This document shows positions 2,352 to 26,673 of a stretch of DNA of 48,781 nucleotides, one piece after another. How positions within the stretch are numbered: the first letter of the stretch is position 1; every line of letters begins with the position of its first letter. The DNA comes from Bacteroidales bacterium (GTDB taxonomy: Bacteria > Bacteroidota > Bacteroidia > Bacteroidales > P3): positions 1-48,781 of the forward strand of contig JAEEMK010000001.1 in NCBI GenBank assembly GCA_016283175.1. Direction: 5' to 3'. Below the pieces are notes generated by a model. That model was not told where the DNA came from. It searched no databases and saw only the letters and a program-made list of their open reading frames with translations. The position numbers and the translations under genes are program-made.

Positions 2352-3119
2352 TTAGATTACACTTAAATGTCTTAATGCTTTGGCAATGCCTTCATCGTCA
2401 GCGCTGTCGGTGACATAGGAGGCGTGTGTTTTGACATTGTCGTCAGCGTTACCCATTGCGACGCTGGTGCCTACATAATCTAGCATCTCGATATCGTTGG
2501 CACCGTCACCGAATGCCATTGATTCTTCGCGTCCAATGCCGAAATGAGCCAGCATACGTTCTATTCCGACGGCTTTGCTGCTGTTTTCAGGTACAATGTC
2601 GGAGAATAGAGGATGCCAGCGTGGCATACGACAGTGACTTAGGTTTTCCAATACCTTGGCATCATTGTCGGCAGATTGTATGGCAATGAATTGGAATACC
2701 TCTTTGTCTCTCAGTTCGTCTAGCGGTAAAACAGGGGGCATTTTGAAACCAAGCTTATCGCGCAATGCCATAGCAACAGGATCTATTCGGTTAATGTACA
2801 TTTCGCGTTCTGTGAAGCACATTGTTGTCAAATCGTACTGCTTTGCGTATTCAAGCCATCGCTGACAGTCGTTTTTGTCAATAGAATTGCGGAGAATCAC
2901 CTTGTCGTCGACAAAGCAGAAACCACCGTTAACAGTGATAAAGCCATCGAATTGCACAGGCATATCGGGGATGAGCATCAGCGGTCGTCCAGAAGAAATG
3001 AAGGTTTTCACTCCTTTTCGACGCAGAGTCTCAAATGCTGCTATTGTACCAGGCAACACTTTGTGAGTGTTGTAGCTAAGCAGCGTTCCGTCAATGTCGA
3101 AAAATATGGCCTTTATCAT
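2352..3119 (-). CDS. Cof-type HAD-IIB family phosphatase
   Basis: The protein is 255 residues from the ATG at 3119, chosen because it places the catalytic motif D-I-D-G-T-L near the N-terminus. A longer in-frame start at 3212 would add 31 lysine-rich, non-homologous-looking residues. Motif II is I-S-S-G-R-P, and the C-terminal motif A-F-G-D-G-A-N-D-I-E-M-L supplies the Mg-binding acidic residues. Members of this family hydrolyse small phosphorylated metabolites such as sugar phosphates or pyridoxal phosphate; the substrate cannot be read from sequence. It is cytosolic. A 367-base gene-free region with a candidate promoter lies upstream. Confidence 0.85.
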   Translation of the reverse strand: MIKAIFFDIDGTLLSYNTHKVLPGTIAAFETLRRKGVKTFISSGRPLMLIPDMPVQFDGFITVNGGFCFVDDKVILRNSIDKNDCQRWLEYAKQYDLTTMCFTEREMYINRIDPVAMALRDKLGFKMPPVLPLDELRDKEVFQFIAIQSADNDAKVLENLSHCRMPRWHPLFSDIVPENSSKAVGIERMLAHFGIGREESMAFGDGANDIEMLDYVGTSVAMGNADDNVKTHASYVTDSADDEGIAKALRHLSVI

Positions 3120-3287
3120 ATAATATTTTTTCTTTTTTTTAAGATTATTTAAAACTTCAGAACACTTTTTTGACGTGTACAAACAACGCTTTTGCACTAT
3201 TTTAATATGCAAGATGGAGATTGATGATTTTACAACAATCTCTAGATGTTGCCATTACGCGTCTAGTATGGCTCAAAAATTTCGTTG

Positions 3288-3295
3288 CAAATTTA
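3288..3295 (-). promoter_or_regulatory. Candidate Bacteroidetes -7 promoter element for the HAD gene
   Basis: On the minus strand the sequence reads TAAATTTG followed by CA, matching the phylum consensus TAnnTTTG. A near-match CTTG to the -33 TTTG box lies 20 bases upstream (3316-3319). The predicted transcript would have a leader of about 160 bases before the ATG at 3119. Confidence 0.35.
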
Positions 3296-22026: not shown

Positions 22027-24060
22027 TCACTTCACTGGATATTCGATTCTTACGTGGTAAATGCTCATCATCCTCTCTTTAATGTATGAGCGAATGCGAG
22101 TGATGTCTTCCAGTGTCAACGGACAGTTGTTCAGCTGTTTCTGTTCGATTTTTCCGTCTATGATCTTGTCGACCATACGGTCTATTGATTCTTTGCTGTG
22201 GTTTTTAAGGCTTTTGCAGGCCGCCTCGACCGAGTCGACCATCATCACCACCGCCGTCTCGCGCGAAAACGGCGTGGGACCCAAGTAGCGATAGTCGGCA
22301 ATGTTGATTTCGGACTCGTCGCGATGCAGCTTGGCTTGGGCGTAGAAGTACCCCGTCACCGTCGTTCCGTGGTGGGTGCGTATGAAGTCTGTCACCTCGG
22401 CGGGCAGGCGGTACTTCTTGGCAAGGGTAATGCCATCGCGCACGTGTTGGGTGATGATGTGCGCACTCTCTTCGTAGTCTATGTTGTCGTGCGGGTTGAA
22501 ACCGTTGTTCTGGTTCTCGGTGAAATAGATAGGTGCCATAATCTTGCCGATGTCGTGATAGAGTGCCCCGACCTTGGCCAGCAGGGCGTTGCCGCCGATT
22601 TCGTTTATAATGTCCTCGGATATGTTGGCCACTTGCATCGAATGCTGGAAGGTGCCGGGAGCTTTCTGCGACAGTTCGCGCAGCGCCGGCGTGTTGGTGC
22701 TCGATATCTCAAGCAGCGTAAGGTTGGTGGTCATTCCGAACATACGCTCGAAAAGGAAAATGAGCGGGTAGGCGAGAAGTGTCAGTATGGCGTTGATGAA
22801 GAATATCAGGAAGCGCTCGGGCTGTATGTTGGCGAAGCCAGCGTCGGTGCTGAGCACACCGGCAATGTAAATCAGCGAGTAGGTGGAGAATATGACCAGG
22901 GCAACAGCGAAGAAACTGCTGCGTTTTTCAAAGTTGCGCACCGTTATGATGCTCATCATACCCGACACAAGCTGGTAGAAGATGAATTCGTAACTGTTTG
23001 GCACCATATTGCCTATGATGATGACGGCGACAATGTGGATGTAAAGAGCCACACGCATATCGAAAAATATACGCATCAATATGGGCACTATGCAGATTGG
23101 CGCTATCAGCACCAGCGACGGGTCGCTGCGGACAATCAGCGCCACCACTGCCGAAATAAAGATGACGATGAAGAAAGCAAAACTGACTTTCTTGATGTCA
23201 TCAAGCATAGGGTGGCGTATGTTTTTGAGAAAGATGTAAAGAGCCACAAAGGCTATGACGCACAGCAGAGCCTGTCCCAAATAGTGCAGAAAAATATTGT
23301 ATTCGCCAATGCTGCGGCGCGACTCCTCCTGTTCCAGCGTGGTCAATGTCAGCGCAGTCTCCTCGTCCACACGCTGTCCTTTGGCCACGATGAGCTCGTC
23401 CTTCAGCACCATTCGCGATGAATAGGAAAGTTGCGACAGGCGCGTGTCGAGTTCCAGATGCGTGCGGTTCTCGTCGAACACCATTGTCGGAACAAGTATC
23501 GAGTCGGTAAGGATTCTTGCAAAACGTGCCGCTTCGGCCGAATCAGGCAGGGCTTGTGCCACAAACTGCCTGACATCATAGGGTGTCATAATGCCCTCGG
23601 GGTCAATTTCCTGGCCTATGTTGCCCGTCAGCACTACCACAGGATGGCCGTTCAAATCATCCTCTTCAATACAGTAGCCGCGCGAGTTGTATACCAGTGT
23701 GACGACCTCCTGCGCCAACTGCGATTCACGGCGCGACAGGTGCTGTGCATTGCAGTTCTGGTGTGCCTTGTGGCGCGCTTCGTTGTCAATGTGGTAATAG
23801 CGTGTCGATGCATCCTTGATGCGCTGTACCTCTTGGGCGTTCTCTTTCTCAGACTTCAAGACGGTGAAGTCGAACGGAGCGTAAAGGTCTTCGCCGTGCC
23901 AGTAAGAACCAACGGCATAGTCGTATTGCACACGCGAATAGTTGTCGGGAAACATCACGAGAATCAGCGCTACCGTGACTGCCAGGATTGAAATCAAATA
24001 GAGTATGCGCAGATGCGATATTATATAAGATGCAAAATTCTTCATAGCCTTATCTTTCAT
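22027..24060 (-). CDS. 7TM-7TMR-HD family phosphodiesterase (PgpH-like, probable cyclic di-AMP hydrolase)
   Basis: A 677-residue membrane protein in the PgpH arrangement: one N-terminal transmembrane helix (about 15-37), an extracytoplasmic 7TMR-HDED domain (about 40-255), about seven transmembrane helices (about 260-440), then a cytosolic HD domain. Metal-binding residues are visible at H473 (F-Q-H-S), H502-D503 (Y-H-D-I-G-K), R-T-H-H-G and D-S-V-E-A. PgpH proteins hydrolyse cyclic di-AMP to pApA; by family this is the likely reaction. Starts at 24060 or at an ATG five codons later are both possible. It is probably the first gene of an operon with the YfhO-like and flavodiiron genes. Confidence 0.88.
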   Translation of the reverse strand: MKDKAMKNFASYIISHLRILYLISILAVTVALILVMFPDNYSRVQYDYAVGSYWHGEDLYAPFDFTVLKSEKENAQEVQRIKDASTRYYHIDNEARHKAHQNCNAQHLSRRESQLAQEVVTLVYNSRGYCIEEDDLNGHPVVVLTGNIGQEIDPEGIMTPYDVRQFVAQALPDSAEAARFARILTDSILVPTMVFDENRTHLELDTRLSQLSYSSRMVLKDELIVAKGQRVDEETALTLTTLEQEESRRSIGEYNIFLHYLGQALLCVIAFVALYIFLKNIRHPMLDDIKKVSFAFFIVIFISAVVALIVRSDPSLVLIAPICIVPILMRIFFDMRVALYIHIVAVIIIGNMVPNSYEFIFYQLVSGMMSIITVRNFEKRSSFFAVALVIFSTYSLIYIAGVLSTDAGFANIQPERFLIFFINAILTLLAYPLIFLFERMFGMTTNLTLLEISSTNTPALRELSQKAPGTFQHSMQVANISEDIINEIGGNALLAKVGALYHDIGKIMAPIYFTENQNNGFNPHDNIDYEESAHIITQHVRDGITLAKKYRLPAEVTDFIRTHHGTTVTGYFYAQAKLHRDESEINIADYRYLGPTPFSRETAVVMMVDSVEAACKSLKNHSKESIDRMVDKIIDGKIEQKQLNNCPLTLEDITRIRSYIKERMMSIYHVRIEYPVK

Positions 24061-24188: not shown

Positions 24189-24219
24189 CTTTTTCATCGT
24201 CACAACCAGCCACCAGCAT

Positions 24220-24320
24220 AGGCATATGTACAGTATATGTACAGTATATGTACAGTATTTGTACGCTTTAGAAGCGTACATATACTGTACATATACTGTA
24301 CATATACTGTACATATGCCT
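24220..24320. repeat. 101-base near-perfect palindrome built from 11-bp repeats
   Basis: Arms of 49 bases (24220-24268 and 24272-24320) are reverse complements with one mismatch and enclose a 3-base loop TAG. Each arm consists of four tandem 11-bp units of consensus TATATGTACAG. Each unit carries the self-complementary hexamer TGTACA, exact in three units per arm and with one change in the innermost unit. TGTACA centres are 11 bp apart within each arm. It lies in the divergent gap between the HD phosphodiesterase and groES. There is no flanking T-run as in a terminator, no target-site duplication that I can see, and no adjacent transposase. Confidence 0.93.
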
Positions 24321-24507
24321 TGGAAAGCACTGTATTGGTTTGGTGTTCAATGAGTTATGGTAAATACTTGTCTATATTTATAATATACTAATATTCAGTG
24401 TATTATGTAGGATTTAACATATTTTAACCATAAAACGACTAAATTTTAACATTTCTACACCAATGAAAGAAATGCTGACAGCGTTGCGACATTTAGTTAC
24501 CTGTAGA

Positions 24508-24632: not shown

Positions 24633-24902
24633 ATGAAAATTAAACCGTTAGCAGACAGAGTTCTGATTGAACCTGCAGAAGCAGAGCAGAAAACAGCCTC
24701 AGGAATCATCATTCCCGACACAGCAAAAGAAAAACCGCAGCGTGGTAAGGTCGTTGCCGTTGGCAAAGGCACCAAGGATCACGAGATGACCGTCAAAGTG
24801 GGCGACAATGTGCTTTATGGCAAGTACAGCGGCACCGAAATCAACCTCGACGGTACTGTATATATGATTATGAAAGAAAGCGATATTTACGCGATTATTT
24901 AA
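24633..24902 (+). CDS. groES: Co-chaperonin GroES
   Basis: An 89-residue protein, the standard length. It caps the GroEL barrel during ATP-driven protein folding in the cytosol. [10 protein letters not shown] opens the protein; the mobile loop is [14 protein letters not shown], and G-K-G-T-K and [10 protein letters not shown] complete the fold. The ATG at 24633 is chosen because the frame upstream (to 24516) is unrelated leader sequence. groEL follows after 133 bases, giving the usual groES-groEL operon. Confidence 0.97.

Positions 24903-24975: not shown

Positions 24976-26673
<1,698 letters not shown>

Follow-up and report, generated by a model that had tools for sequence, protein, structure and literature searches.

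A near-perfect palindrome of 11-bp boxes between pgpH-like and groESL genes as a probable member of a dispersed intergenic repeat family in Bacteroidales

Bacteria are not expected to maintain long, near-perfect palindromes stably. What, then, is such a sequence doing between a gene for a PgpH-like 7TM-HD protein and groES-groEL in a Bacteroidales bacterium (GenBank assembly GCA_016283175.1, contig JAEEMK010000001.1), and is it peculiar to that place? Throughout, the window is the whole stretch of DNA analysed, 48,781 nt in length. A repeat search of the window returned two 49-nt arms (24220-24268 and 24272-24320) that are 98 % complementary, with one mismatch and a 3-nt loop, confirming the palindrome described in a first-pass annotation made from the letters alone. 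That annotation had also seen eight 11-bp units all carrying TGTACA; the eight boxes, their 11-bp spacing and hence their helical phasing stand, but only six read TGTACA, the two innermost being TGTACG and CGTACA (Table 1). As RNA, 24215-24325 has a predicted folding energy of -79.3 kcal/mol, whereas shuffled sequences average -28.0 (z -16.8) and 0 of 200 shuffles do as well. Pfam identification of the flanking genes bore out the proposed location, between a candidate cyclic di-AMP phosphodiesterase and groESL, and showed the gap to be divergent. The earlier remark that no known form was matched agrees with Rfam, whose covariance models gave 0 matches in the window at the gathering threshold, and plasmid and phage records held no match to the window copy.

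Table 1. Features of the palindrome and of the gap that holds it (positions are those of the window)
Feature	Position	Strand	Description	Basis
Palindrome	24220..24320	.	Arms 49 nt x2 + loop TAG	Repeat search, fold, other copies
Left array	24227..24265	+	Direct boxes: TGTACA at 24227, 24238, 24249; TGTACG at 24260; 11-bp spacing	Sequence
Centre	24266..24274	.	CTT-TAG-AAG; three loop bases differ among copies	Sequence, loop variants
Right array	24275..24313	-	Inverted boxes: CGTACA at 24275; TGTACA at 24286, 24297, 24308	Sequence
Left outer flank	24203..24219	+	Inner part ACCAGCAT continues into the arm's AGGCAT; beside many copies too	By eye
Right outer flank	24321..24363	+	Resembles ATTGGTTTGGTTTTCAATATGTT flank of other copies (e.g. 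L132); boundary approximate	By eye
7TM-HD protein (PgpH-like)	22027-24060	-		Pfam
GroES	24633-24902	+		Pfam
GroEL	25036-26673	+		Pfam

The palindrome has many copies in its own genome (designated G000; 2,249,148 bases in 111 contigs). Its core, GTACGCTTNNNAAGCGTAC, occurs 94 times there at ≤1 mismatch, where a control gave 0, and a 20-base version of the core occurs 96 times at ≤3 mismatches, where controls gave 3 and 1. Because these 94-96 copies are dispersed in the genome, an operator local to pgpH and groESL, as first suggested, is ruled out, although a multi-site binding array is still plausible in the form of a genome-wide repeat. We read 85 array copies, two of which (one closing contig C10, the other opening C43) have the same flank and are probably one place; two shortened copies (C7:8166 and C10:20289) lie beyond the 85. 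A four-box GTAC chain was found in 160 of the 168 arms measured, and the eight arms lacking it include two cut by contig ends (L063, L121) and others that have lost a unit (L088, L102, L115, L139).

As assemblies are broken by the repeat, some contigs ending inside it, a fold-back created during assembly had to be considered. A contig end lies within ~120 bp of six of the 85 copies, plus a seventh copy on C18 outside the filter, and one of the copies, L078 at a contig start, folds back perfectly throughout the flank shown; it looks like an assembly artefact and was dropped from the arm-mismatch and per-position deviation statistics. Most copies, however, the window copy included, lie inside contigs and have two unlike flanks, and the same plan recurs in assemblies of ten species. 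An artefact is excluded for the family and unlikely for the window copy, because the outer flanks of the latter differ; as an account of the palindrome it has next to no probability. The first-pass annotation had held that absence from relatives and from the rest of the genome would betray an artefact or an accident, and copies were found in both.

An exact degenerate three-box pattern matched 10 of 120 genus genomes, the own one included (hereafter the carriers), with 184, 125, 105, 89, 52, 42, 12, 11, 2 and 2 forward matches per carrier; the reversed-pattern control gave one match in total over the genus genomes. The remaining 110 had no match to this pattern, which would miss diverged forms, a narrower core pattern having missed the carriers G112 and G124. 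Across an evenly drawn sample of the order, three-box arrays were present in 2 of 393 genomes, namely the own one and G112. A scan of named genomes gave at least 80 loci and, among the matches listed, all came from eight assemblies titled Bacteroidetes, Bacteroidales or Prevotellaceae; the isolate names are ruminant-type in six of these (sheep colon, sheep rectum, goat omasum, reindeer and two RUG, which we take to denote rumen), the remaining two being UBA assemblies. The search of relatives proposed at the outset thus found arrays, including one in the very same divergent gap of G112 and G124. Both flanks of that pgpH-groES gap align in 13 congeners: these two hold an array, in the sequence version of G112 and G124 themselves, and the gap lacks one in the other 11, among them the carriers G055, G049 and G072. 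When G000 copies were compared with orthologous gaps of four other carriers (a hand count at loci fetched for holding the element), 12 of 16 gaps were occupied and four empty.

Across the carriers the plan is constant: four directional 11-bp boxes, a short centre, four inverted boxes and semi-conserved outer modules. The letters are carrier-specific, the unit reading TGTACAGTA.. in G000, TGTACAATA.. in G112 and G124, TGTACG[GC]TA.. in G055 and G072, and TGTACGATA.. in G107; a consensus drawn by eye from these versions is TGTAC[A/G]NTA[T/C][A/T]. This consensus is directional, and the element is therefore two head-to-head arrays. Orientable forms (G070, G112 and G124) have a conserved outer module on one side. 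All 14 G070 copies read have two unlike arms in a common arrangement, with a mean of 8.9 mismatches in 41 nt, i.e. they appear to derive from an oriented master. In G072 all seven regular copies are perfect, and in 73 regular copies of G000 the two arms differ by 1.08 mismatches compared with 1.70 by chance (shuffles), a modest excess of symmetry. Because the G070 arms differ, what is conserved is the boxes and their spacing, not a perfect hairpin. The same unequal arms weaken two earlier proposals for the conserved function, a cruciform and a hairpin cut by RNase III. An RNA element, whether a long hairpin transcript, a terminator or an RNase III substrate, would fit the strong predicted fold and the complementarity of arms within copies, above shuffles in G000 and perfect in G072, yet G070 arms differ at ~9 of 41 positions and the window gave no Rfam match. 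Moreover, within-copy covariation was looked for in the outer modules and none was found, which rules these out as an extension of the hairpin and further reduces the case for RNA. We consider an RNA hairpin or terminator quite unlikely.

Several other repeats and arrays were seen along the way. A GC-rich module (approximately AACCGGGCTGCCACGCACAGGGCTYCTCCACGCGCTCCACMGGAGCTTGTG) follows the palindrome in 10 of the 168 G000 arms (L062, L075, L088, L112, L115, L118, L121, L123, L135 and L147), in eight of them followed in turn by a duplicate of the palindrome end, and it recurs in tandem in L350. At L060, L062, L080 and L111 the intergenic gap around the G000 copy exceeds its orthologous counterparts in other carriers by several hundred bases and contains other repeats, e.g. 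GTGCGACACACCCCGGCCTTCG. Eight viral contigs (IMG/VR, L342-L349) bear exact three-box arrays, i.e. three or more tandem 11-bp TGTAC-type boxes; by reading, the array is near a primase-like ORF in L342, L343 and L349, and the boxes of L344-L347, judged by eye, agree with the unit consensus. The phages behind these contigs look unrelated by eye, and their arrays are perhaps convergent. Finally, among genes that read as ordinary, G029, from another family of the order, has two non-palindromic arrays (L009 and L011), in each of which about six TGTACA boxes recur every 10-11 bp.

The distribution of copies among related species bears on how the element has spread. At least 22 copies of a ~100-bp unit were counted in G107 (40 of 138 candidates scored); G095 has one, at a site common to G107 (93.8 % identity over 3 kb), and G117 has none. 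At the one G107 locus examined, the neighbouring sequence is present in both G095 and G117 without the element. This is lineage-specific amplification with an empty site. Within G000, 16 copies are grouped by the same two outer modules. In 12 of these (four more divergent ones being left out) the modules align ungapped over 92 nt with 70 % and 65 % identity, whilst the sequence beyond them is unrelated (35-37 % identity, 44-56 gaps), the homologous modules stopping ~140 nt from the centre. Homologous outer modules in unrelated surroundings show copying into new places, some of it old. At sites without the element neither a target duplication nor an exact boundary was definable, the boundaries not being resolvable there.

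The boxes themselves are near-invariant. In the 12 G000 copies just described the boxed arms are 96-98 % identical, compared with the 65-70 % of their outer modules. Over 160 arms, in copies that were found via their innermost bases and with outer figures that mix several module types, positions 0-41 deviate by ≤2.5 %, five interbox positions excepted, whereas between positions 48 and 59 the deviation is 30-59 % at 10 of the 12; conservation drops stepwise with distance from the centre. A core conserved so far beyond its outer modules is more than simple spread and decay predict, and counts against reading the palindrome as a member of a repeat family. The conservation of the boxes would reflect either selection at each locus or homogenisation of copies by conversion. 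At four sites orthologous between G112 and G124, fetched for holding the element, both species have it, and in two of these pairs (L241/L221 and L217/L255) the outer ends, by eye, differ on both sides together (GGTCGTTG/CAACGACC vs GTCCGTTG/CAACGGAC). The strict boxes and these shared sites favour another explanation, in which ~90 head-to-head eight-box sites are bound by a host protein as a host-functional architectural or regulatory array, with constraint rather than copying keeping the boxes; such a protein would shape the nucleoid or buffer negative supercoils between divergent promoters.

The position of copies relative to genes, which were called as long ORFs and not via an annotation pipeline, bears on the same question. 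Amongst 77 own copies with gene calls on both sides, 34 lie in divergent, 36 in tandem and 7 in convergent gaps, and 57 of 80 copies of other carriers could be placed (32, 19 and 6, respectively). The 134 placed copies (66 divergent, 55 tandem, 13 convergent) depart from the background of intergenic bases (19, 55 and 26 %) with a chi-square p of ~5e-19, measured against an imperfect control that comprises the window plus 80 loci from other carriers, leaves out element-holding gaps and has 80 of its 81 sources chosen for holding the element. The divergent excess argues for a host array, although it rests on that background; the scarcity of copies in convergent gaps, where terminators sit, is a further point against an RNA element. 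Several observations nevertheless speak against a host array: the ~40 neighbouring genes read by eye form a mixed housekeeping set, with no regulon apparent among those downstream; the median distance from centre to start codon is ~290 nt; and orientation relative to tandem genes shows no clear preference (5 vs 8). The window's site, moreover, is empty in most alignable congeners, three carriers among them, and the array looks dispensable because 110 of the 120 genus genomes have no exact three-box match, albeit with diverged forms liable to be missed. Box constraint and divergent-gap bias keep the host array alive as an explanation, and we regard it as possible, though not as what we expect. 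Local skews of the oriented forms (18 positive vs 35 negative) are too weak for a replication-strand bias.

Of 74 copies examined, 64 are free of any long ORF extending into the element, which, judged by eye, has no protein of its own. A search for a mobiliser, covering Y1 transposases and, in the own assembly, DDE_Tnp_1, found none in assemblies that, for the carriers, are 81-100 % complete and may lack the relevant gene. Y1 transposases (PF01797) occur in 73 of the 120 genomes, comprising nine of the 10 carriers (G072 has no match) and 64 of the 110 non-carriers. Thirty fetched Y1 loci had no array within ~1.5 kb; because only three of them came from carriers, all 19 carrier Y1 loci were then examined together with as much as 4 kb of flanking DNA in either direction. 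Arrays were present in five, at 1.1, 1.95, 3.85, 3.9 and 3.9 kb, about twice the ~2.4 expected from a rough hand estimate based on copy densities; the two nearest are both in G070, with other long ORFs intervening, and the own Y1 loci hold no array. Pairs of array-bearing loci have only the array in common or, for one pair, the Y1 gene region (67 % identity), and no larger unit is common to these loci. As such, the case for a Y1/RAYT mobiliser appears weak and is not supported, a role for it being possible. No insertion sequence with DDE_Tnp_1 emerged as a partner in the own assembly, which has no match to that domain. Two own Y1 genes (L182 on C99 and L183 on C18) lie beside other short hairpin-like repeats, GAGCCTTTCAGGCTC-like and GGGCGTAC..GTACGCCC-like, which are not the window's element, and L182 contains, at 2977-3291, a 104-aa ORF with a run of NDTV tetrapeptide repeats.

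On balance, the palindrome is probably a single member of a non-autonomous repeat family of the REPIN/MITE class, dispersed through intergenic DNA. The best reading of the sequences is of a new family, non-autonomous and REPIN/MITE-like, whose core would be an array of phased, putative protein-binding sites. One DNA-binding protein may occupy the boxes cooperatively, with the sites laid out on a single face of the helix; an enzyme acting in trans would place new copies of the element in intergenic DNA that is upstream of genes or divergent; and re-copying or gene conversion could preserve both the mirror likeness of the arms and the similarity of copies within a genome. A bolder version, which we find doubtful, is that a once-selfish palindrome is now a genome-wide set of ~90 eight-site nucleoprotein arrays between divergent promoters in a few Bacteroidales lineages: a box-binding protein would maintain all of them, and copying at the palindrome, whether break-induced or by template switching, would make copies change together, giving a lineage-specific version at partly the same loci. 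Whichever holds, some ninety palindromes of about 100 bp persist in one chromosome, their boxes near invariant while the surroundings drift. The patchy family, in 10 of 120 genus genomes, offers pairs of carriers and non-carriers for comparison, and makes it testable which enzyme spreads repeats that have no closely linked transposase, and whether a repeat can be captured for promoter or nucleoid organisation.

Amongst known systems, the ParR-parC centromere of plasmid R1, in which clusters of 11-bp direct repeats are cooperatively bound by a DNA-binding protein, is presumably akin to the boxes here, but it is one plasmid site, whereas the window family is dispersed and chromosomal. No prior description of the window repeat was found in the literature searched, figures and supplements being outside the search, nor in the available portions of PMC4060949 and PMC5771137. 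PINSR, a 188-bp repeat of Prevotella intermedia and Prevotella nigrescens, is intergenic, has 177-184 copies, occurs in few related species and is of unknown function and source, according to the part of the report available (PMC4755523). Compared by description and not by sequence, the two are alike in being intergenic, multicopy and restricted to few relatives, and differ in that PINSR is described, in that same part, without terminal inverted repeats (PMC4755523). As with MITEs, members of the window family are short and dispersed, have inverted-repeat ends and, with coding content judged by eye, have no protein of their own. BrickBuilt, a MITE of Porphyromonas gingivalis, is in the accessible text of its description an intergenic element of leader, tandem short units and tail with bidirectional promoter activity, having 23-nt direct units, 19 copies and terminal repeats like those of IS5-family elements (PMC4596501). 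To the extent of that text, both are Bacteroidales intergenic repeats of short units; the window family, however, has 11-bp boxes in an inverted 4+4 arrangement in place of 23-nt direct units, in an assembly without DDE_Tnp_1. REPs, in the excerpts available, are found mainly in unidirectional and convergent gaps and have conserved GTAG or CGTC end tags (PMC3733652), whereas the window family favours divergent gaps and is scarce in convergent ones, with no constant end tag seen by eye in the listed copies. The REPIN study, in the portion at hand, aligned 101 doublets and describes REP doublets that form hairpins together with a RAYT transposase (PMC3116915). REPINs consist of two REPs and a spacer, unlike the eight phased 11-bp boxes here, for which no closely linked RAYT was found. 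The likeness lies in an extragenic inverted-repeat unit roughly 100 bp long, with a predicted hairpin and about a hundred copies: as in a REPIN, two inverted conserved units form a hairpin at many extragenic sites, each unit being in this family a four-box array.
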